A stretch of 64,000 bases of DNA, taken from NCBI RefSeq assembly GCF_013004105.1, contig NZ_CP053085.1, forward strand, positions 4,712,001-4,776,000. The letters run 5' to 3'. The stretch's first letter is position 1. Each line of letters starts with the position of its first letter. Source of the stretch: Gemmatimonas groenlandica. Its GTDB lineage: Bacteria; Gemmatimonadota; Gemmatimonadetes; Gemmatimonadales; Gemmatimonadaceae. A program made the position numbers and the translations under genes. A model generated the notes under the pieces. That model was not told the origin of the DNA and made no database searches. It was given only the letters and a program-made list of their open reading frames with translations. Below are positions 17,342 to 30,893 of this stretch, one piece after another.

Positions 17342-18091
17342 ATGTCCGACGCTTCGCTGCGTGCGCGCACCACGACTGAAATTGTCGACGCGGCCTTCAC
17401 GTTGTATCGCCGCGACTTTCAGCAATACATCATGGTCGGCGCCATCGCGTACTCGCCGATGATCGTATTTTCGCTGCTCACCCAAGGCATGACCGGCACC
17501 GGTCAGATCCTCGTGTCCGTCGGCGCCGCGGTGATCGGTCTGGTCATCGCTACGCTCGTTGGCGCGGCGGTCACTCGCATGGGAGCCGACGTGTACCTCG
17601 GCGGGCAGGCTGACGTTGGACGCACCGTGGCCGCCGTGTTGCCGCTCGTGCCGATGTTGATCATGGGGGCACTCCTCACGATGCTCATGGTCGTGCCAGG
17701 GCTGATCCTCCTGATCGTGCCGGGGGTCTACCTCGCCATCAGGCTGTTCGCTCTCTCGCAGATCATCGTGCTCGAAAAGATGGGGCCGGTCGATGCCGTC
17801 ACCCGCTCGTTTGAGCTCACCAAGGGGCGCGCCGGACCTGTGTTCCTGACGTTGCTGTTGCTGTACGGTCTCTATTTCGCACTGTCGTTCGGCGTTACCC
17901 TCGCGGTCGCGCTGTTCGGCAGCCCGGTGTTACAGACGGTGGTGAGTTCGGTGCTGAGTATTTTCTGCTTCCCGATTCTTGGCCTCGCCGCGCTCGTGCT
18001 GTACTACGACCTGCGTATTCGCAACGAAGGCTTCGACGTGGAGCATATGGCGCAGTCGCTCGACGGATCGTCGTACGCCCCGACGATCTGA
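17342..18091 (+). CDS. Multi-pass membrane protein of the DUF58/MoxR cluster
   Basis: 249 residues, about six membrane helices, beginning with the amphipathic segment TTTEIVDAAFTLYRRDFQQY and including VPGLILLIVPGVYLAIRLFALSQIIVLEKMGPVDAVTRSFELTKGR. This style matches the membrane domain of glycerophosphoryl diester phosphodiesterase-like proteins, without the phosphodiesterase domain. It lies 21 bp before the DUF4129 gene and heads the MoxR operon. In related clusters a membrane protein of this kind is common, so a role in the same envelope process is likely. Confidence 0.8.
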   Translation: MSDASLRARTTTEIVDAAFTLYRRDFQQYIMVGAIAYSPMIVFSLLTQGMTGTGQILVSVGAAVIGLVIATLVGAAVTRMGADVYLGGQADVGRTVAAVLPLVPMLIMGALLTMLMVVPGLILLIVPGVYLAIRLFALSQIIVLEKMGPVDAVTRSFELTKGRAGPVFLTLLLLYGLYFALSFGVTLAVALFGSPVLQTVVSSVLSIFCFPILGLAALVLYYDLRIRNEGFDVEHMAQSLDGSSYAPTI

Positions 18092-18112: not shown

Positions 18113-18751
18113 ATGTCGGTGATGCTGCAGTCCGCGGCGTCGCCACCGATACCGGGCGCGTGGAGTGACGCGGCGATTCGTGATACGATCGCCGCGATCG
18201 CCAGTCGATCGGAGTATCAGCGCGAGCTGACCACATCGCTCGCCGCTCGCGCACTCCGCTGGCTCAGCGACCTGCTCGACGCGCTCTTCACCTCGGTGCG
18301 TGGCGCGCCGTACGGTCGCGAGATCACGATTGCGGTCGTGGGCCTGCTCGTGGCGCTCATCGTGGCGCGCCTCGTGATCGGTGTGCGCGCCGAACGGGCG
18401 CTGGTGACCGCGCGCGTGCCGCGCAAAGCCAGCGTGGCCGATCTCACGGCACTCGCCGACGCTGAGCGCTTGGCGCAAGCGGGTGACTTCACCGCCGCCG
18501 CCCACGCCCTCTTCGCGGCCCTGCTACGCGCCTGCGCGGCTCGCGGTGAAGTGCGGCTGCATCCGTCCAAGACGACCGGTGATTACGCTCGTGAACTACG
18601 CCGTCGCAATACCCCGTCGTTCCGACCGTTCCAGTCGTTCCGCTCGCGCTACGATCGCGTGATCTACGGCGAGATGCAGTGCAGTGCCGGCGATTACGCG
18701 GCACTCTCGACCGATGCCCGGCACTTGCTGGGCAGCGAGCGTGCGGCGTGA
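18113..18751 (+). CDS. DUF4129 domain membrane protein
   Basis: 212 residues with one membrane helix (ITIAVVGLLVALIVARLVIGV, ~67-87) and a cytoplasmic C-terminal domain typical of DUF4129: DAERLAQAGDFTAAAHALFAALLRACAARGEVRLHPSKTTGDYARELR and RFRSRYDRVIYGEMQCSAGDYAAL (written here in part). DUF4129 proteins travel with MoxR ATPases and DUF58 proteins. Its TGA overlaps the GTG of the DUF4350 gene (GTGA at 18748-18751). Confidence 0.85.
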   Translation: MSVMLQSAASPPIPGAWSDAAIRDTIAAIASRSEYQRELTTSLAARALRWLSDLLDALFTSVRGAPYGREITIAVVGLLVALIVARLVIGVRAERALVTARVPRKASVADLTALADAERLAQAGDFTAAAHALFAALLRACAARGEVRLHPSKTTGDYARELRRRNTPSFRPFQSFRSRYDRVIYGEMQCSAGDYAALSTDARHLLGSERAA

Positions 18752-20019
18752 CGAATGCCGTCTCGATGAACCCCAGCGCCGCGGCGCCGGCGCCATGGTA
18801 CACGCGCCCCGGCCGTGTGATCGCGCTGCTCGCGGCGTTGGTCGCGGTCACCGCGTTGCTGGCGCGAACCCCGGTCACCGGGCGCGCGGGCGATCCGCGC
18901 TTGTCGACCAGCTCGGCCGATCCCCTCGGTGCGAAATTGATCTACGAACTGGCCGACAGGTTGGCGTGGAACGTGTCGCGCGATACGCGCGGTGCGGTGC
19001 CGACGGCCACCACGACGATCTACAGCGTGCTCGATCCGGTCGTGCCCGTTACGCCGGAAGAGGCGGCCGCCATGCTGGCGCACGTCCGACGAGGCGGCGC
19101 GATGTTGCTGGTGCTCGGCGAAGGCACCTCGCCGCTCAGTGACTCGCTCAAGCTCACGGTGGATCGCCAAGGCGATGATGTGGCCCAGAACATCGGAGCC
19201 GTGCGTCCGTGTGTCGGTGCCACGCGACCGCGCTTCACGCGGGATGCCCTCTGGTTCGGGAACGCGCGCATGCTGGCGCTACAGGGGAAAGGGCTGACCG
19301 CCCCCGGCCTCCAGCGCCTCGTGCTCCTCGAAAGCCGGCCGAGCATCGTGACAGATGGACCGCGCAGCACCATGGTCGGCATGCCCTACGGCGCCGGACG
19401 ACTCGTGGTCGCGGCCGATCCCGACGTGTTCCGCAACGATGCGTTGCGTGACTGTCGCTACGGACTCGATATCGCCTCGGTGCGCGCGCTCGAATATCTG
19501 TCGGCCGGCGGCACCGCTCCGCGGCGTGCGGTCGTGTTCGACGAGTTCCATCAGGGCCGCACACGCTTCGGCATGACGGGCGCCATCGAACGATTCCTCG
19601 GCGAAACGCCCCCCGGCCGCGTGGTGCTGCAACTCGCGCTCGCCTCCTTGCTCCTGCTGTTCGCGGCTGCGCCGCGCGTGTTGCCGCCGCGCGATCAGGT
19701 ACGCGTCGAGCGGCGCTCGCCACTGGAGCACGTCGACGCCCTCGCCCGCGCCTACGTGCAGGTCGGGGCCACCCGCACCAGCGCCCAACATCTCGTGCGC
19801 GGACTGCGACGGCGCATGGAGCACGGCGCCGCGCGCGGCAAGCGCGGTGGGATCGACGAAGACCAACTGTATCTCTCGCGAATCGCCGACGTGAAACCCG
19901 CGCTGGCCAGTGACATCGCGATCGTGCGTCACGCGCTGACTAACCCCGTCGACCTCGGCGAATTCCGCCGGGTCGGACAAGCGATTCAACGCATTGAAGC
20001 GGCCCTTACGCGAACATGA
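18748..20019 (+). CDS. DUF4350 domain membrane protein
   Basis: 423 residues. One N-terminal membrane helix (PGRVIALLAALVAVTALLA), a periplasmic DUF4350 domain (STSSADPLGAKLIYELADR, then HVRRGGAMLLVLGEG and VVFDEFHQG), a second helix near LALASLLLLFAAAPRVLP, and a cytoplasmic tail of about 110 residues. DUF4350 has a Rossmann-like, glutamine-amidotransferase-like fold without assigned activity. GTG at 18748 overlaps the previous stop, and the final ATGA overlaps the MoxR start, so the operon is tightly coupled. Confidence 0.85.
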   Translation: MTNAVSMNPSAAAPAPWYTRPGRVIALLAALVAVTALLARTPVTGRAGDPRLSTSSADPLGAKLIYELADRLAWNVSRDTRGAVPTATTTIYSVLDPVVPVTPEEAAAMLAHVRRGGAMLLVLGEGTSPLSDSLKLTVDRQGDDVAQNIGAVRPCVGATRPRFTRDALWFGNARMLALQGKGLTAPGLQRLVLLESRPSIVTDGPRSTMVGMPYGAGRLVVAADPDVFRNDALRDCRYGLDIASVRALEYLSAGGTAPRRAVVFDEFHQGRTRFGMTGAIERFLGETPPGRVVLQLALASLLLLFAAAPRVLPPRDQVRVERRSPLEHVDALARAYVQVGATRTSAQHLVRGLRRRMEHGAARGKRGGIDEDQLYLSRIADVKPALASDIAIVRHALTNPVDLGEFRRVGQAIQRIEAALTRT

Positions 20020-20993
20020 CCACTCCTCCCATGCATCTCACGATCGATCAGGGCGCGGAGATCCTGCGCCGTCTCCGCACTGCCATTGCCGCTCGAATCG
20101 TAGGGCAGGATGCGGCCATCGACGATGCGCTCATCACATTCCTCGCGCGCGGACATCTCCTGATCGAGGGAGTGCCCGGCACCGCCAAGACGTTGCTGGT
20201 GCGCACGCTGGCCAGCGCGCTTGGGCTTCGGTTCACCCGCGTGCAGTTCACGCCCGATCTCATGCCGAGTGATCTCACCGGTATCGCGATCGTACGCGAT
20301 GTGGCGCGTGGTTTCGAATTCCAGCCTGGTCCCGTGTTCACCGACTTGCTCCTCGGTGACGAGATCAACCGCGCGCCTGCCAAGACACAGTCGGCGCTGC
20401 TGGAAGCGATGTCCGAGCGCCAGGTATCGGCCGACGGCGTCACGCGCCCGCTGGATACACTGTTCACGGTGTTCGCCACGCAGAATCCGGTGGAGCACGA
20501 AGGCACGTATCCGCTGCCCGAAGCGCAGCTCGACCGCTTTCTGCTGAAGACGCTCATGGGATACCCGGCACTCGACGCGGAGCTCGCGATGCTGGCGTCG
20601 CATGAAGCGGGATTCAATCCCGAGAGCACGACCGAGCCCCTGTCCGAGCCGATGCTCGGCGACGGCGAAGCGGTGGCGCTGCGGGCACTGGCGGACTCCG
20701 TACGCGTGGCCCCTGAGGTGCAGGCGTACATCACCTCGATCACGCGCGCCACGCGCGAAGAGCCCTCGCTGTCCCTCGGGGCGTCGCCGCGCGCCACGGT
20801 CGCGCTGATGCGCGCCGCACGCGCTGCCGCCGTGCTCGAAGGGCGTGGCTTCGTGACACCGGACGACGTGAAGGATCGGGTGTTCGCCGTGCTGCGGCAT
20901 CGCGTCACGCTCTCGCCCGAGCTGGAAGTAGAGGGGCGCACCGCCGACGATGCCCTGTCGGCCATTCTGTTGCGCGTCGTCGCGCCCAAGTAG
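20016..20993 (+). CDS. MoxR-type AAA+ ATPase
   Basis: 325 residues. Walker A is EGVPGTAKT, the MoxR-specific RVQFTPDLMPSDLTG follows, Walker B is LLLGDEINRAPAK, and sensor-type FATQNPVEHEGTYPLPEAQLDRF comes next, with a C-terminal lid domain. MoxR ATPases act as chaperones that help VWA-domain proteins mature or insert metal cofactors. Its partner here would be the DUF58 protein encoded 2 bp downstream. Start ATG overlaps the DUF4350 stop by four bases. Confidence 0.93.
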   Translation: MTTPPMHLTIDQGAEILRRLRTAIAARIVGQDAAIDDALITFLARGHLLIEGVPGTAKTLLVRTLASALGLRFTRVQFTPDLMPSDLTGIAIVRDVARGFEFQPGPVFTDLLLGDEINRAPAKTQSALLEAMSERQVSADGVTRPLDTLFTVFATQNPVEHEGTYPLPEAQLDRFLLKTLMGYPALDAELAMLASHEAGFNPESTTEPLSEPMLGDGEAVALRALADSVRVAPEVQAYITSITRATREEPSLSLGASPRATVALMRAARAAAVLEGRGFVTPDDVKDRVFAVLRHRVTLSPELEVEGRTADDALSAILLRVVAPK

Positions 20994-20995
20994 GG

Positions 20996-22345
20996 ATGCC
21001 TCCGTTTCTCCGGCGTGCAATGCGAGCGCTGTTGCGCTTCGCGCCGCAGCGGCGACTTGCATGGCTTGCGGCCATCGCGGCGCCCGTGTGGCTGCTGCCG
21101 GCCCCATTCGGCACGTACGCGGGTCTGACGGTCTCGCTGCTCGTGGTCGTAGCGATCGCGATCGACGTACTGTTGCTCCCTGCCGCGGCCGCCGTGGGCG
21201 TCGAGCGCGAGTTTTCGGCGTCGGTCGGCATCGGCGATGAAATCGAGGGCAGCTACACGGTGACGAACCGCACTCGGCGTGCGCTGCAGGTGGAATTGCA
21301 CGACCAACTCCCACCGCTGGTCGAGGGCGGTGTGCAGTCGATCGCACTGCGCGTCCCCGGCGCGTCGGCGCAGCGCGTGGGGGCGAGTCTGCGCGGCAAG
21401 GCGCGAGGTACTGCTCCACTCGGTGATGTCGGCGTGCGCGTCAGCACGATGCTCGGATTGGTCAGCGCACGCTACACATTCGACACCACTGACGCGGTGC
21501 GCGTAATGCCCTCGCTGGCCGGCGTGCGTCGTTATCGCTTGCTGGCCATGCAGCACCGTCTCGACGCGATGGGTATTCGCGTGCTACGCCACAAGGGGCA
21601 GGGCCAGGCCTTCGCGCGGCTGCGCGAATACGTGCGCGGCGACGACCCGCGTCATATCGACTGGAAGGCCACGTCGAAGAAGGGGAAGTTCATCACGCGC
21701 GAGTTCACCGTGGAACGTTCGCAGACGGTGATCACCCTCGTGGATGCGGGGCGCGGCATGACGCAGCTTTCGGGCGAATTCTCCCGCTTCGAGCACGCCC
21801 TCAGTGCGGCGTTGATCCTGACGGATGTGGCGTCCTCGTCTGGTGACCGGGTGGGCGCACTGGTGTTCGACGACGAGGTGCGCGCGTTCGTGCCGCCGCA
21901 AGCCAGCAAGGGCGCGCTCACGCTGGTGCGCGACGCCTTCATTCCGGTGCACGCAACGTCACGGGAACCCGACTACGCGTCGTCGTTCCGCTTTTTGGCC
22001 GCGCATCAGAAGAAGCGGGCGCTGGTGGTGTTCTTCACCGACGTTATCGATGTGCGCGCCTCGCAGGCCTTGCTGGCCCACGTGACGCACAGTGCCGCGC
22101 GTCATCTCGTGCTGGTCGTGGCATTGCGCAATGACGCATTGTTCGAGGCCGCGGCACCCTGTGAGGCGGCGTCGACGGTACAGCTGTTCGAGAGTGCGGC
22201 AGCGGAGGAAGTGATTCAGGCGCGCGAGGCCGTGTTGGAGCGGATGCGGAGAGCCGGTGTGGTGGTGCTCGACGTGTCGCCGCAAACCATGACCGCGGGT
22301 GTCGTGAACCGCTATCTCGAACTCAAGGCGCGAGGCGCGCTGTAG
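20996..22345 (+). CDS. DUF58 (VWA-like) membrane-anchored protein
   Basis: 449 residues. Two N-terminal membrane segments (~20-60) precede a DUF58 region with RLREYVRGDDPRHIDWKATSKKGKFITREF, then a VWA-like fold beginning VITLVDAGRGM. The metal-ion motif DxSxS of canonical VWA is DAGRG here, so divalent-metal adhesion may be lost. DUF58 proteins are substrates or partners of MoxR. It is the last gene of the rightward operon, and its final 23 bases overlap the end of the convergent RDD-SpoIIM gene. Confidence 0.88.
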   Translation: MPPFLRRAMRALLRFAPQRRLAWLAAIAAPVWLLPAPFGTYAGLTVSLLVVVAIAIDVLLLPAAAAVGVEREFSASVGIGDEIEGSYTVTNRTRRALQVELHDQLPPLVEGGVQSIALRVPGASAQRVGASLRGKARGTAPLGDVGVRVSTMLGLVSARYTFDTTDAVRVMPSLAGVRRYRLLAMQHRLDAMGIRVLRHKGQGQAFARLREYVRGDDPRHIDWKATSKKGKFITREFTVERSQTVITLVDAGRGMTQLSGEFSRFEHALSAALILTDVASSSGDRVGALVFDDEVRAFVPPQASKGALTLVRDAFIPVHATSREPDYASSFRFLAAHQKKRALVVFFTDVIDVRASQALLAHVTHSAARHLVLVVALRNDALFEAAAPCEAASTVQLFESAAAEEVIQAREAVLERMRRAGVVVLDVSPQTMTAGVVNRYLELKARGAL

Positions 22346-24188
22346 CGGGGAGCGCTGCGCGGGGCCGGTAGAAGAGGTAGATCGCCAGCACGACGGCGCT
22401 GGTGGCCGACACCGCCAGTTTGGTTTGCAATGACAACGTCGCGTTCGGAGACACAAAGCCCTCGATCACGCCGGCGAAGAGCAGCAGAAATACGGCGCCG
22501 GCCAGCAGTCGGAAGGCGCGGCCACCACGCTGCACCAGTGCCGCGCGACGAGTACGATTGCCAGGCACGAGCATGCCCGACGCGAGCAGCAGCCCGGCCG
22601 CACCGGCTAACACGATGGCGGTGAGTTCGAGCACGCCGTGCGGCGCAATGAAGGAGAAGATCAATGACCCGATCCCCTTTGAAATATAGAGTCCGAGTGC
22701 CGCGCCTATACTGACGCCGTTCATGACCAGCGCCCAGCAGGTGAGCAGGCCGGCCGTCATGCCGCCGGCGAAGGCGACGAAGGTCACCTGCACATTGTTC
22801 GTGGCGATCTGCGACGCCATCATCGGGCGATACACTTCAGGATCCTCGATGTACCCTTTGCCACGCTTCGCGTCCTCGACGCCCTTGGCCGCACGGGCAA
22901 GCATGCCTTGCGGCAACAGCGTGGCGGCCACCGAGGGATGCGTGATCACCGCGCGGGCGGCGATCGCCATGGGGCCGAACAACAGCGTAGCCGCAATCGC
23001 GATCGGCAGCCCCGAGGCCCGCACTTCGGCCGGCACATCGGCGAAGAGAAAGGTGATGAGCCGCCGTAAGGTGAACGTGCGACGCCGGTAGAGCAGGCTG
23101 TGGGCGCCTGCTACCAGGCGGTTGAGATAGAACAGGTCGGAGGACTCCTGCCCACGCGTGGCCGTGCGAAGGCGCGCCAGGTCGGCCGTCATCTCGCGGT
23201 AGTCCTGCACGAAGCGCCGCACACCATCTTCGCCGAGCGTGGACAAGCCGCCGCCCTGTGCCGACTTGAGTGTGTTGGCGAATGACGCCCACCGCGGGGC
23301 GTTGGTGGCCACGATCCGATGTTTCTCGCGCGCGGCTCCGGTATCATTGCGCGCTGCCGCACCTTGCGCCCGAGCGGCCAGTTCGGTGTCGTGCAATCGC
23401 ACCAGCTGCGCGATCGGAAGTTGTGCCGGATCTTGCGTGAGCTTCGCACTGAAGCGATGCGCCAGTCCGGCCGCGAGCTGCGTGCGACGTTCGGCGTCGA
23501 ACTCCATACGACGCTGCACAAAGCGGTCGAGCAGCTGGAATTCTGCGTCCGTCAGTCTGGCCGAGAGCGGTACGGGCTTGGACGTGTCGGCCCGCGCGTC
23601 GGCGCGGCTGCTCCTTCGCGGGGTCACCGGCTGCGACACGAGGTCTTCCTTCACTACGATCGTGCCGGCAGCCATGTCACCGAGTCGCTTGCCGCGCGCG
23701 TTCGACATGATCGTCACAAGCCCGACCGCGTACAGAAAGATCGGTTGCAGGTCGATGGCGCGTACGATATTGCGAATCGCCGACGCCTCGAACGTCACCG
23801 ACAGGCCGCCGTCCTTGACCACCCGCAACTTCATGATGCGCTTGCCCGGCGTCTGTCCGTCAGCCAGCGCTTCGAAGAGCACGTAGTACAGCCATAGAAT
23901 GGCGAACTGAATCACCCCGAGCAACGCCATTACCCACGCACCGGACGAATCGCGGGACGCGGCGACCCCGAACTTTACCTGCAGCTGCAGGACAGCGATG
24001 ATGACGGCGACGAACGTCGCGATACAGATCGCGTAGTCGATCAACGCCGCCGTGGCGCGCGAACCCACGCCGGCCAACGTGTACGAGAGTACGACGAGTT
24101 CCGGCGTCTCGACGTCGACCGTTTGCGACAATGAGGGACGGGGCAACTGCCCCGGCGCCGACGGTGCCGGCGGTATACTGGTAGCCAT
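22323..24188 (-). CDS. RDD domain fused to a SpoIIM-like membrane domain
   Basis: 621 residues. Residues ~30-185 form an RDD membrane domain: AGVGSRATAALIDYAICI with the Arg and Asp that name the family, FEALADGQTPGKRIMKLRVV, and the closing KRLGDMAAGTIVV. A soluble helical linker (~215-320) leads into a SpoIIM/DUF95 region with QDYREMTADLARLR, several helices and FIAPHGVLELTAIVLAGAAGLLL, FSFIAPHG being typical of the family. In MoxR-DUF58 clusters RDD and SpoIIM are usually separate adjacent genes, so this is a fusion. It faces the rightward operon and overlaps DUF58 by 23 bp. Confidence 0.85.
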   Translation of the reverse strand: MATSIPPAPSAPGQLPRPSLSQTVDVETPELVVLSYTLAGVGSRATAALIDYAICIATFVAVIIAVLQLQVKFGVAASRDSSGAWVMALLGVIQFAILWLYYVLFEALADGQTPGKRIMKLRVVKDGGLSVTFEASAIRNIVRAIDLQPIFLYAVGLVTIMSNARGKRLGDMAAGTIVVKEDLVSQPVTPRRSSRADARADTSKPVPLSARLTDAEFQLLDRFVQRRMEFDAERRTQLAAGLAHRFSAKLTQDPAQLPIAQLVRLHDTELAARAQGAAARNDTGAAREKHRIVATNAPRWASFANTLKSAQGGGLSTLGEDGVRRFVQDYREMTADLARLRTATRGQESSDLFYLNRLVAGAHSLLYRRRTFTLRRLITFLFADVPAEVRASGLPIAIAATLLFGPMAIAARAVITHPSVAATLLPQGMLARAAKGVEDAKRGKGYIEDPEVYRPMMASQIATNNVQVTFVAFAGGMTAGLLTCWALVMNGVSIGAALGLYISKGIGSLIFSFIAPHGVLELTAIVLAGAAGLLLASGMLVPGNRTRRAALVQRGGRAFRLLAGAVFLLLFAGVIEGFVSPNATLSLQTKLAVSATSAVVLAIYLFYRPRAALPATARLAP

Positions 24189-25971: not shown

Positions 25972-27561
25972 CTACGCCACGCCCTCGGCCGCTTCTGCGA
26001 TACTCGAGCGGTGATGGGCGAAGGCCGCCACCAGATGATCGCGCAGATCGCACAGGAGCTGGCGGCTCGTCTCGGTGGAGTGCACCGATTCGATCGTACT
26101 GTCGAAGTACAGACAGCCGATGAGCTTCATCTCCAGCACCAACGGCAGGAGGGCGAAGTTGCTGGGCGATAGATCCTTGATGAGGCGATCGCGCCCGTAC
26201 ACTTTCGCGTCGCCACCGGTCATCTCCACAAAGAGATCGCGACGGATATGCAGCGCGGCACCGAGGGGGCCGAATGCCGCGGTGGGACGCAACAGGAAGT
26301 TGCGCGCGAGTTCAGCGCTGCCCCGCCCGATGCCCACTCGTCCCCGGATCAGCTTGAAATCCTCGGCGCTAATGCCCAGGACACCGCGCTCGTATCCCGC
26401 TTCACACGCCGCCCGCAAGGTCGAATCGGTGACCGAACCCACGCTGAAGGAACCCTGCGCCTGCTCTCGCTGCTGCACGAGCGCACGCACCACGTCGCGC
26501 AGCCGCGCTTCCTGTACAGAGTCGCTTGGATTGGGTGCCAGTCGATCGATGGCCTCCTGCAACGCTGCGGCGTCGGCGGGCGCCAGCGCGCTCCCACTCA
26601 GCTCGTGCTCGGCGACCGCGCCGTCGGTGCGGTTGCGCTTCATCAGCGCCACGGCGGTCGCGTCGGCGTGTCCACGCAGCCACGCATCGAGGTCCACCTG
26701 CATGGTGCCCAGCGTCGGCTGCGCCTCGTCGATCGCCGCGATCATGCACTCTTGCATGGTCAGGACGTCGATGCCGATCAAGGGAGCAAAACGAGCACGG
26801 ATCTCGCGCACCTCGGCACCATCGGTCGTGGCCGCAACGCCGTACAAGCAGCGCGCAATTTCAGCACTGCACTGCGTCACCGCATGCAGCGTCTCGCCGT
26901 CAAGTGACACGCCGCGATAGACGCGCATCGTGCGCACGACGGCCGGGGGCATGCCCCAACGCTTCGCCAGCGCGACACCCACTTCTTCGAAGGTGAAGCC
27001 GAACTGTTGTGCCTCCGCGCCGTCGGCGCACGCACCCTCGGCTTGAAGTTGCTCGAGCCACGCGCGATACGGGCGCGGACGATAGCAGGCCACCAACAGC
27101 TCACCGAATCGACGGAAAAGTGCGCAGAGATAGGCCAGCTCGGGCCGATCGTAGCCGGCGGCGAACGACAGATGCAGACTGTGGTTGGCCGCCAGCACCG
27201 ACTCCACCATCAGATCGCGCACCGAGGGGGCATCCTGTTCGACCTGCCCGAACACGCTCGCCGCGGTGGACAGATGTTGCACGCGGTCGAAGCCGAGCAG
27301 CATGATCGCCTGCTTCACCGACCCGACGTGGCCGTGCGCGTTACCGCCTCCCGCGGCGGCATTCGCGATGCGCAACACTTTCGCCGAGAGGGCAACATCT
27401 TGCACGATCGCGTGCTCGAGCAGGCCCACGCGGGCGTCGAGATTGGCGGCGACGCTGCCGATCGAACGCACATTCCGTACGAATGCCGGTAGATCGGCGG
27501 CCGCGCCCACGGCCTTCACGAACGCTTCGGCTTCCGGCGACAGATCGGCCGTCGAGCTCAT
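25972..27561 (-). CDS. HDOD domain signalling protein with GAF-like C-terminus
   Basis: 529 residues, cytoplasmic. Residues ~15-240 are an HDOD domain, an HD-like fold lacking the catalytic His-Asp pair: HAIVQDVALSAKVLRIANAA, VKQAIMLLGFDRVQHLS, LAYLCALFRRFGELLVACY. The C-terminal ~150 residues form a GAF-like sensor (FLLRPTAAFGPLGAALHIRRD and LPLVLEMKLIGCLYFDS). HDOD proteins connect to cell-cycle, virulence or secondary-messenger control. This is the third gene of a coupled operon and a paralogue of the first. Confidence 0.85.
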   Translation of the reverse strand: MSSTADLSPEAEAFVKAVGAAADLPAFVRNVRSIGSVAANLDARVGLLEHAIVQDVALSAKVLRIANAAAGGGNAHGHVGSVKQAIMLLGFDRVQHLSTAASVFGQVEQDAPSVRDLMVESVLAANHSLHLSFAAGYDRPELAYLCALFRRFGELLVACYRPRPYRAWLEQLQAEGACADGAEAQQFGFTFEEVGVALAKRWGMPPAVVRTMRVYRGVSLDGETLHAVTQCSAEIARCLYGVAATTDGAEVREIRARFAPLIGIDVLTMQECMIAAIDEAQPTLGTMQVDLDAWLRGHADATAVALMKRNRTDGAVAEHELSGSALAPADAAALQEAIDRLAPNPSDSVQEARLRDVVRALVQQREQAQGSFSVGSVTDSTLRAACEAGYERGVLGISAEDFKLIRGRVGIGRGSAELARNFLLRPTAAFGPLGAALHIRRDLFVEMTGGDAKVYGRDRLIKDLSPSNFALLPLVLEMKLIGCLYFDSTIESVHSTETSRQLLCDLRDHLVAAFAHHRSSIAEAAEGVA

Positions 27562-27863
27562 GACTGATCGTCCGACGAGCCGATGCTCGCTGTCAACGAG
27601 GCCAGCAACACCTGTCGGAGCGGGAGTGCACCCTGCTTCCGCAGGAAGGTGCTCACCGGCGAATCGGCGGCGAAGAGGTCCATGACCGAGGTCACTGACA
27701 CATCACTCCAGATTCGCGGCTCTTGTCCGAGGTAGCGTGCGAACACGAGGCCTTCGTCGACGCGCACCTCGAGTGGTCCACCGCTCACGCCGGTGATACG
27801 CATGACGGCACCGCGTACGTCGTATGCCGCCGTCGTTGGAGGCACGTCCAGGTCGATGCTCAT
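27558..27863 (-). CDS. Small protein between two HDOD paralogues
   Basis: 101 residues, no signal peptide. The sequence SIDLDVPPTTAAYDVRGAVMRITGV and LEVRVDEGLVFARYLG is beta-rich, followed by a helical half with VTSVMDLFAADSPVSTFLRKQGALPLRQVLLASL. I do not recognise the family; a small regulatory or PilZ-like fold is possible but no PilZ arginine motif is seen. It overlaps both neighbours by four bases (ATGA at 27863 and at 27558-27561), so all three proteins are made in coupled amounts, which suggests physical interaction. Confidence 0.75.
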   Translation of the reverse strand: MSIDLDVPPTTAAYDVRGAVMRITGVSGGPLEVRVDEGLVFARYLGQEPRIWSDVSVTSVMDLFAADSPVSTFLRKQGALPLRQVLLASLTASIGSSDDQS

Positions 27864-29440
27864 CAGCTGCGCCGCCGTGCAATCGCGTCCACGACCAGAT
27901 CGGCGATCGACTTCGTGTAACGCACGGTGGCGCGATCGGGGGCCGGCCCGGCACCGATGCGATCGCAGTAGATGCAGCCGATCACCTTGCCGAGTACGAT
28001 CAGCGGGAATACGCCGAACTGCGACACGCCCTGTTCCGTGGCCCACCGCTGCTCCATGGTGTGCATGGTCCGGTCGGTGGGGAGGTACACGGCCTGTCGC
28101 TGCTGCGTGAGCGCGACCACTGGTCCGCCGCGCGCTGAGACCGGAAACGAGAATCGCGTCAACAGCGCGTCGATGCCGGTGCCGAGGCCGGTGCGCGCGA
28201 CCAGCTGCATGCGGTCGCCGGTCATGAAGCAGGTCACGACACGGTCGAAGGGCCCGCCGCGCATGATGACTTCCATGGCCTGCAGCAGCACCGTGCCGAT
28301 GGTGGCGCCCGATGCGGGATCGACAGTGTCATCGAGTTCGTTGCGCAGCCGCGCACGCACGGTGACGTCTGGCTCGGCCAGCATGGTGAGTGCATCGCCA
28401 TCGTCGGGCAGCGCGAGCGACGCGCCGAAGGCCCGGCGGGCGGCGGCATTGAGTTCGCGCAGGCGCGGCACACTTTGGTCGCTGTCTGAACCCAACAGTA
28501 CGTCGCGCGTTTCCTTCAGCGCGTCGCTCGCAATGCGACCCACTTGATCCCGCGTCAGGCGGATCCGCGACCGGTGGGCATCGAGCATGGCATCCAGCGC
28601 CGGCCCCACGCTGTTGTTGCTGTCGGTCTGATACAGCGTGCCGGTGAGCTCATGGCTGAATGCGGTGACCGATGCGAGCAGTGACGACGAGGTGTGCGCC
28701 GTGGCGCGCATTCCTAGCGCGATGGTATCGGGCAGTCCCCACTGGTTCGCCACCTCGACACCGAAGTCGGTGTAGGCGAAGCCGAGCACCATGCGCAGCG
28801 CCGACGCCTCGCTGCGTCCGTCGTCCTGAATGAGCGAACGGATGCGTTGGTAGTCGTCGTGGAAGTAGCAGGCGACGAGTACTTCGCCGAGGTTGCGAAA
28901 CATCCCTGCGAGATGCGCCGCCTCGGGGTCGTCGTGTCCCAACTGTAACGCGGTGGCGCGGGCATGGTTCGCCGTCAGGAGCGACAGGATCATCAGCTCC
29001 TTGAGTTCCGGCGAGCGCCGCTGGAAGTGCTCGAACAGCAACATGCTGCCAGCCAGCTGCCGGACCACGCGCGCGCCCAGCATCATCATGGCGTGCGTGG
29101 CGCTTTCGGTTGGACGTCCGCCACGCCGGTAGTGTGCGCTGTTGGCGGTCCGCACCACACTCAGCGCCAGCCCGTACTCGCGCAGCACGATGTTGGCCAG
29201 CCGCTGGAGGGAGGCGGCGTCGTCGTCGATGGTGGTGATGGTGTCGATGACCTGCCGCGACAAGGCGGGGAAGTCACCGCCTTCCATGATGCGTGCGAGT
29301 CGCGTCCGGATGGAAAAGTGGTCGACGCCTCCACTGGCCGCGCCGGGCTCGACGAGGCGGTGACTGGCTTCGCTGACCAGAGGGAGGGGATCCTGAAGAC
29401 GCATCATGTCGTCGAGTATCGGCACCTGACGCGCTATCAT
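27863..29440 (-). CDS. HDOD domain signalling protein with GAF-like C-terminus
   Basis: 525 residues, first gene of the HDOD operon. HDOD (~45-265): LANIVLREYGLALSVVRTANSAHYRR, THAMMMLGARVVRQLAG, and AAHLAGMFRNLGEVLVACYF. A helical middle follows, then a GAF-like domain (~370-520) with FDRVVTCFMTGDRMQLVARTGLG and FGVFPLIVLGKVIGCIYCDRIG. The arrangement repeats that of the third gene, so the pair arose by duplication. The longest start is 7 bp from the divergent YoaK start; the ATG at 29407 (residue 12) would leave 40 bp and is also plausible. Confidence 0.85.
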   Translation of the reverse strand: MIARQVPILDDMMRLQDPLPLVSEASHRLVEPGAASGGVDHFSIRTRLARIMEGGDFPALSRQVIDTITTIDDDAASLQRLANIVLREYGLALSVVRTANSAHYRRGGRPTESATHAMMMLGARVVRQLAGSMLLFEHFQRRSPELKELMILSLLTANHARATALQLGHDDPEAAHLAGMFRNLGEVLVACYFHDDYQRIRSLIQDDGRSEASALRMVLGFAYTDFGVEVANQWGLPDTIALGMRATAHTSSSLLASVTAFSHELTGTLYQTDSNNSVGPALDAMLDAHRSRIRLTRDQVGRIASDALKETRDVLLGSDSDQSVPRLRELNAAARRAFGASLALPDDGDALTMLAEPDVTVRARLRNELDDTVDPASGATIGTVLLQAMEVIMRGGPFDRVVTCFMTGDRMQLVARTGLGTGIDALLTRFSFPVSARGGPVVALTQQRQAVYLPTDRTMHTMEQRWATEQGVSQFGVFPLIVLGKVIGCIYCDRIGAGPAPDRATVRYTKSIADLVVDAIARRRS

Positions 29441-30215: not shown

Positions 30216-30893
30216 CACCGCTGCCCGAGTGGCCTCGCCACGCACGTCGGCCCGATCCGTGGCCATTCGCGGTGAAGCCGTTTCGTACCGGCCTCTGACC
30301 GAAAAGCCTGACCGCGAATTCACGCCGATGACCGCGAATTCAACCACAAAAGAGAATTGGGCCTCGTCGCGTGCGACGACCTTCCAGCCCATGTCGGCCC
30401 GATCCGTGGCGATTCGTGCCGATCCGCGGTGAAGCCGTTTCGTACCGGCTTCTGACCGAACAGCCTGACCGCGGATTCACGCCAATGACCGCAGATACAA
30501 CCACAAAAAGAGAATTGGGACTCGACGTGTGCGATGGCCCCGCCGCGCATGTCGGCCCGATCCGTGGCCATTCGCGCCAATTCGCGGTGAAGCCGTTTTG
30601 TAGCGGCCTCTGACCGAAAAGCCTGACCGCGGATTCACGCCGATGACCGCGAATTCAACCACAAAAGAGAATTGCGCCTCGGCGCGTGCGACGACCTTCC
30701 AGCCCACGTCGGCCCGATCCGTGGCCATTCGCGCCAATCCGCGGTGAAGCAGTTTTGTTGAGCGCTCGAACCAAACCGCCTTGATCTGGCCACTACTCCC
30801 CCTCGAGCCGTTCGACCCGCACATTGAGCAGCGGCGATCTCTGCCGCCCGTTTTCCCTGTAGGTCACGTCGCCTCCATTTCAGCCATCGCGTT
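30216..30893. other. Non-coding spacer holding a tandem hairpin array
   Basis: No convincing gene lies in these 678 bases. About 500 bases are the tandem palindromic array described separately; the remaining 130 bases before the S15 peptidase start contain no recognised site. Short open frames in the array are products of the repeat. Confidence 0.75.
30244..30757. repeat. Tandem array of ~157-bp palindromic repeat units (family A)
   Basis: Units begin at the phrase GTCGGCCCGATCCGTGGC near 30244, 30391, 30549 and 30706, giving spacings of 147, 158 and 157 bp and 3.3 copies. Each unit has a left arm (GATCCGTGGCCATTCGCG..AATTCGCGGTGAAG) and, about 60 bases on, a right arm (CTGACCGCGRATTCACGCCRATGACCGCGAATTC) that is its imperfect reverse complement. 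The first unit is shorter because one 10-bp module (CCAATTCGCG) is absent. The same end, GCGGTGAAGCYGTTT, recurs in the elements at 52174 and 62962. Confidence 0.85.

Follow-up and report, generated by a model that had tools for sequence, protein, structure and literature searches.

We analyzed a window of 64,000 nucleotides from the genome of Gemmatimonas groenlandica (NCBI RefSeq assembly GCF_013004105.1, contig NZ_CP053085.1, positions 4,712,001 to 4,776,000 of the forward strand), in which a single open reading frame (ORF) on the minus strand, at positions 22323-24188, encodes a 621-aa protein that joins an RDD-family protein to a SpoIIM-family protein. Both parts were recognized by their Pfam profiles: RDD (PF06271) matched residues 38–175 with 76.8 bits, against a curated cut-off of 24.1, and SpoIIM (PF01944) matched residues 451–581 with 114.4 bits, against a cut-off of 26.9. 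A SpoIIM profile built during the analysis covered residues 299–605, and the whole protein gave zero matches in NCBIfam at E≤0.01. At approximately residues 190–290 (23319-23621, minus strand), the C-terminal tail of the RDD part leads into the N-terminal tail of the SpoIIM part. The host genome is a single contig of 5.18 Mb with one match to the fusion protein, and a frameshift, assembly or contamination artefact at the locus was rejected because of this single-contig genome.

The fusion gene faces an operon on the plus strand, which begins here and in many relatives with the gene for a GPDPase_memb/YciC-like membrane protein, hereafter GPDm (17342-18091, 249 aa, scoring under the curated cut-offs). 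This is followed by four genes assigned from Pfam, encoding a DUF4129 protein (18113-18751, 212 aa), a DUF4350 protein (18760-20019, translated from 18760, with the longest ORF beginning at 18679), a MoxR AAA+ ATPase (20016-20993, 325 aa, AAA_3 and AAA_lid_2, with Walker A GVPGTAKT and Walker B LLGDE) and, adjoining MoxR, a DUF58 protein related to von Willebrand factor A (vWA) domains (20996-22345, 449 aa). The locus thus holds a six-part cassette of GPDm-like, DUF4129, DUF4350, MoxR, DUF58 and RDD–SpoIIM proteins. The fusion and DUF58 genes overlap tail to tail by 23 bp (22323-22345), with the TGA stop of the fusion lying opposite the DUF58 codons CTC-AAG (Leu-Lys). A first-pass annotation of this DNA had described the two domains in one chain, the facing MoxR–DUF58 operon, with DUF4129 among its genes, and the 23-bp overlap of 3' ends, all of which our analysis bore out.

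The fusion is real and well conserved, and within Gemmatimonadota it is the rule. The protein matched 145 of the 298 genomes of this phylum, and the match ran across both domains in 120 of them, without an internal stop in 115 and with one stop in 5 (G079, G118, G145, G215 and G090), which proved to be single fused ORFs as well. A search with the SpoIIM family gave 126 matches of at least 85 bits, 120 of which lay in frames of at least 587 aa; the six in shorter frames were at contig ends (G195, G146), at frame breaks (G168, G071, G266) or in a fusion with a shorter linker (G002). Weak SpoIIM matches in G254, G183 and G076 were of another type. Clearly separate genes of the RDD/SpoIIM cassette type were found in none of the 298 genomes, G168 being ambiguous, since its frame break is close to the junction and a true split is possible there. 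Furthermore, independent ORF calls in a set of 55 Gemmatimonadota loci, one per genome (54 from the sample plus L031), gave a single fused ORF in 50, the other five being the contig-end and frame-break cases named above. The domain-spanning matches and the fused ORF calls led us to reject a frameshift or assembly accident as the cause across the phylum. The fusions are 34–61% identical to the host protein.

Beyond Gemmatimonadota, the two parts are mostly encoded apart. Among 56 loci found in named genomes, RDD and SpoIIM, when both were present outside this phylum, were separate genes, arranged in tandem with RDD first in Pirellulales, Treponema, a gammaproteobacterium and Sulfidibacter, and divergently in Bacteroidota. 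In three loci, one acidobacterial (L034) and two from planctomycetes (L043, L045), SpoIIM faces DUF58 and RDD diverges, while one locus (L165, genome G637) has the convergent layout of the host but with two genes, RDD and SpoIIM overlapping by 4 bp. Twenty-five whole genomes behind such loci yielded no domain-spanning fusion once G325 and G328 had been checked; a 664-aa open frame in G325 was rejected because a stop separates both genes. The statement in the first-pass annotation that the domains are usually separate neighbors therefore holds outside Gemmatimonadota and fails within it.

Domain-spanning fusions in RDD–SpoIIM order were nevertheless found in 11 of 246 Planctomycetota genomes, and domain-spanning fusions were also found in 2 of 199 Acidobacteriota genomes (G357, G521). 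In each of the 13, a single ORF matching both profiles was confirmed, and the four that were scanned with Pfam showed both domains. Three further domain-spanning matches with one stop (G431, G370 and G619; loci L151, L152 and L164) were rejected as unfused genes. One planctomycete fusion (G702) lies on a 6.9-Mb contig; the other RDD–SpoIIM fusions outside Gemmatimonadota are on contigs of at most ~120 kb, for which binning errors are possible. Planctomycetota, Bacteroidota and Verrucomicrobiota were searched at E≤1e-40, and the sampling for fusions left out Actinomycetota, Spirochaetota, Chloroflexota and Cyanobacteria. The search for the same fusion that the first-pass annotation had proposed thus recovered it in further lineages, contrary to the outcome, no fusion elsewhere, that the annotation had named as refuting its reading. 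The cassettes examined included other unusual proteins: in two Planctomycetaceae loci, GPDm-like and DUF4129 proteins form another membrane-protein fusion (L058:10774-12477 and L060:5792-7435), and in three Bacteroidota loci SpoIIM carries a C-terminal extension of ~300 residues (L056:5187-7106, L067:8929-10821 and L172:2709-4688). In these three loci, we found no separate GPDm gene ahead of DUF4129, and the extension, considered as a possible GPDm counterpart, had no significant family match in L056 or L067.

A fusion with its parts swapped was observed in the planctomycete G608, in which SpoIIM (residues 14–323) precedes RDD (359–574) in one ORF of 598 aa directly after DUF58 (L170:4609-6405), with both families above their Pfam cut-offs. 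It was spotted by eye among rows sharing a frame; reverse-order fusions give two rows per search and were not sought systematically. In a tree, it is closest to the rows of four Verrucomicrobiota, in which the separate genes likewise run DUF58–SpoIIM–RDD. Because its order is swapped, it would have arisen by a joining event of its own, apart from those behind the RDD–SpoIIM fusions.

To count state changes, we used a quick IQ-TREE tree of 79 rows (49 fused and 30 unfused) built from concatenated RDD and SpoIIM parts. At least four changes between fused and unfused were required, and the number was still four when L170 was added as fused, a count that ignores order. A single clade of all 49 fused rows was rejected (log-likelihood difference, dlnL, 267; approximately unbiased test, p-AU, 1.4e-64). 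The fused rows fell into four groups: Gemmatimonadota together with four Planctomycetota of the same layout; five Planctomycetota with the fusion upstream within a one-strand operon; two further Planctomycetota; and the two Acidobacteriota. The second group stands beside the unfused tandem genes of Pirellulales (support 99), a position that fits joining through loss of a stop. The four Planctomycetota in the first group (L153-L156) have a Gemmatimonadota-like fusion in the same convergent cassette and are nested among Gemmatimonadota in the tree, and they probably acquired it by transfer between phyla.

We then compared the junction with the ends of the unfused proteins. Unfused RDD proteins continue for a median of 23 residues past the end of the profile, and the SpoIIM profile begins at residue 18 (median) of unfused SpoIIM proteins, while the fused linker has a median of 44 residues (range 10–59). 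The linker is therefore approximately the sum of the two unfused tails, so whole proteins were joined. With a mean net charge of +10.3, residues 155–399 are probably cytoplasmic, and an AlphaFold2 (AF2) model predicted a long helix across the junction, at residues 259–313 (pLDDT 83.4, pTM 0.59), which we take as a hint only.

Inheritance was examined for DUF58 and the fusion, and gene content for the other cassette parts; all six parts are present at the locus. Within the host family, some DUF58 match occurred in all 99 genomes, and the close cassette form (E<1e-50) in only 45. When the 72 genomes covered by both searches were scored, 28 had this DUF58 and the fusion, none had either one alone and 44 had neither, with the weak matches in G063 and G254 counted as no fusion. 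The fusion is found in 2 of 16 genomes of the host genus. Together, these counts suggest that the pair was gained or lost as a unit. In three genomes (G104, G107 and G026), DUF58 is apart from the fusion, ~58 kb away or on a different contig.

This patchy presence in the genus would also be expected if the cassette were a conflict or anti-phage system resembling the MoxR–vWA ternary systems. MoxR does stand beside a vWA-like protein here, and Pfam bpMoxR matched it with 46.4 bits, behind AAA_3 with 203.6 bits. However, the cassette keeps its gene content across several phyla, and a PADLOC scan of the six cassette proteins gave only weak partial matches, namely PD-T4-6 with 22.8 bits in the RDD stretch and mads_8 with 25.5 bits in MoxR. 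A known anti-phage system was rejected since no full-length PADLOC match was seen among the six proteins, and we regard a defensive role as most improbable.

The 23-bp overlap had been proposed in the first-pass annotation to link expression of the two sides by antisense transcription. If so, read-through antisense RNA would couple the fusion to the MoxR–DUF58 operon and the overlap itself would be regulatory. Tail-to-tail placement with DUF58 is indeed the commonest layout, seen in 37 of the 55 Gemmatimonadota loci; 12 have the fusion head to head with the GPDm gene, and 6 show neither arrangement, having no DUF58 or GPDm gene inside the fetched stretch, which is short for G107. However, the length of the overlap varies. 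Among the 37 tail-to-tail loci, it is 23 bp in 17, 41 bp in 4, 34 bp in 2 and 47, 78 and 86 bp in one each, and 11 have a gap; the other 18 loci are not tail to tail in the fetched stretch. Furthermore, in all 17 loci with the 23-bp overlap the stop of the fusion is a TGA opposite [ACG]TC-AAR, the codons of a conserved (L/I/V)-K of DUF58, so that coding constraint on these residues is enough to keep the overlap. Antisense coupling is very improbable on these results and was rejected as the reason why the overlap is conserved; this part of the first-pass annotation is not supported.

Published data from Mycobacterium tuberculosis bear on whether the two parts meet. In a co-immunoprecipitation (co-IP) with Rv0954, a mycobacterial division protein, Rv3694c (10 spectra) and Rv3695 (9 spectra) were among 19 proteins pulled down (PMC8093794), and these are the SpoIIM and RDD orthologues encoded beside MoxR and DUF58 (PMC8191103). 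This result matters for a competing account, in which the fusion arose from gene order and is nearly neutral: tandem genes on one strand lost a stop, and two independent membrane proteins, which need not touch, came to share one chain. In most loci with unfused tandem genes, the spacing is indeed 0–42 bp or the genes overlap by 4 bp, two pairs (L033, L036) are parted by one in-frame stop, and the length of the fused linker is what such an accident would leave. The agreement in gene order between L170 and its verrucomicrobial relatives and the GPDm–DUF4129 fusions in L058 and L060 also fit this account. However, chance joining does not readily explain why the fusion is kept across a phylum in which the proteins differ as much as noted above, why it survives rearrangement of the locus (tail to tail, head to head or apart), why none of the 298 genomes showed a clear fission, with G168 ambiguous, or why both unfused M. 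tuberculosis proteins came down with one bait. We therefore consider the near-neutral account unlikely.

Instead, we consider it likely, mainly on comparative grounds, that the RDD and SpoIIM parts form a membrane complex. The recurrence of the fusion, its occurrence in both orders, the frequent adjacency of the unfused partners, the co-occurrence with DUF58 and the co-IP all point to a physical partnership between the two. The proposal in the first-pass annotation that the fusion supports a physical complex in the membrane is thus upheld as far as the RDD–SpoIIM partnership is concerned. The ORF joins two complete membrane proteins of a widespread cassette head to tail, and these probably form an obligate complex of roughly 1:1 stoichiometry in the membrane; if they do, joining of adjacent genes would have been tolerated or favored several times. 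Together, the tails of the two parts probably make up a cytoplasmic module that is helical and carries positive charge. With less assurance, the complex might be the membrane end of a machine that remodels the envelope or septum, whose conformation or assembly would be driven by ATP hydrolysis by MoxR, with DUF58 as the adaptor and with participation of GPDm, DUF4129 and DUF4350. The full proposal, that RDD and SpoIIM are one structural unit and the membrane client or effector of MoxR–DUF58 in a division or envelope-remodeling machine of several phyla, mycobacteria included, is possible, and we hold it tentatively.

Several points weigh against the proposed membrane complex. Fusion is not required, because Bacteroidota (198 genomes) and Verrucomicrobiota (145 genomes) had no domain-spanning match, though relatives were present in 51 and 16 genomes, respectively, at the threshold given above. 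Adjacency of genes can by itself yield a fusion, and the state changes in the tree may include fissions, which the count cannot separate from fusions, and deep nodes are weak. The bait in the co-IP was Rv0954 in another phylum, and neither Rv3692 (MoxR) nor Rv3693 (DUF58) was among the 19 proteins recovered with it (PMC8093794). The data thus support the complex through sequence and one published co-IP rather than through direct binding. At the structural level, the alignment given to AF2 was flawed, SpoIIM-only rows being partly misplaced over the RDD part; a fold search of PDB and viral libraries gave no match at E≤0.001, and the best hit of a PDB sequence search was unrelated, with an E of 0.24.

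SpoIIM proteins of non-sporulators, RDD proteins and MoxR–DUF58 modules occur commonly, and most have no assigned role. A fusion gained or lost at least four times, once with its parts swapped, tells which two of these parts most likely touch, and it gives biochemical and structural studies a single-chain construct to work with. The link from the cassette to the published Rv0954 co-IP makes the function of the cassette testable in mycobacteria.

Two other observations were made elsewhere in the window. Between two genes, at 30230-30781, there is an imperfect tandem repeat with a unit of ~157 bp in 3 to 4 copies that are 76–93% alike, and four weak partial matches to it were found elsewhere in the host genome. 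Two adjoining minus-strand ORFs at 25972-29440 are of similar length (529 and 525 aa) and are possibly paralogues.

Finally, we compared the locus with known systems. Among the open-access papers searched, none joined "SpoIIM" and "RDD family" and one had both "SpoIIM" and "MoxR"; subscription journals or domain databases may well list the architecture. SpoIIM/COG1300 has a vWA protein and an AAA+ ATPase of COG0714 as neighbors in several bacteria, and the archaeal family has been placed under membrane remodeling or vesicle formation (Makarova et al. 2015, PMC5898192); the passages of that work on SpoIIM neighborhoods name neither RDD nor a fusion. The mycobacterial cluster Rv3691–Rv3695 is alike in its parts (DUF4350, MoxR, DUF58, SpoIIM-type Rv3694c and RDD-type Rv3695), and, to judge from the c in the name Rv3694c and from the tags tabulated in PMC8191103, SpoIIM lies on the strand opposite DUF58, as it does here. 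In mycobacteria, however, RDD and SpoIIM are two genes, on opposite strands as judged by the tags alone, whereas here they are one chain. The reported fall in expression of this cluster in double lysogens (PMC8191103) was not used, because genes with nearby tags fall too.

SpoIIM of Bacillus subtilis, which belongs to the DMP engulfment complex (PMC5898192), has the Pfam SpoIIM domain in common with the fusion, and differs from it in that here an N-terminal RDD protein is attached and MoxR and DUF58 are adjacent. The host genome had no match to SpoIIP (PF07454) and one to SpoIID (PF08486), at 2016544, ~2.7 Mb from the cassette. SpoIID-family matches also occur in genomes such as that of E. coli. 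With no SpoIIP found and SpoIID distant, the fusion should not be modeled on the sporulation DMP complex.

The RDD protein of Halobacillus andaensis, reported to be an Na+/H+ antiporter (PMC5996927), suggests a different role, in which the RDD part would be an Na+(Li+,K+)/H+ antiporter that SpoIIM and MoxR–DUF58 regulate or assemble. The family signature as defined in that study (an arginine and an aspartate in the first membrane segment, plus another aspartate) was found by spacing: R44, D51 and D171, which are invariant across all 40 fused proteins compared, match R35, D42 and D154 of the Halobacillus protein. However, D158, which is needed for antiport there, appears by ungapped offset as the nearly invariant G175 here, and the fusion to SpoIIM and the cassette context differ as well. 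According to the same source, the D158 residue is not conserved across the whole RDD family. By this analogy, antiport by the RDD part is improbable, and a membrane complex of RDD and SpoIIM remains our preferred reading.

The locus also resembles other MoxR–DUF58 (vWA) modules, in that a MoxR protein with Walker A and B motifs stands beside DUF58. Canonical vWA domains have the metal motif DxSxS. Where this motif would stand, the DUF58 protein here has D-A-G-R-G-M, and the form D-x-G-R-x-M was seen in 25 of 25 Gemmatimonadota rows; the patterns listed for other phyla are mostly D-x-G too. Judging from these residues, this form of DUF58 may bind partners without the usual metal.

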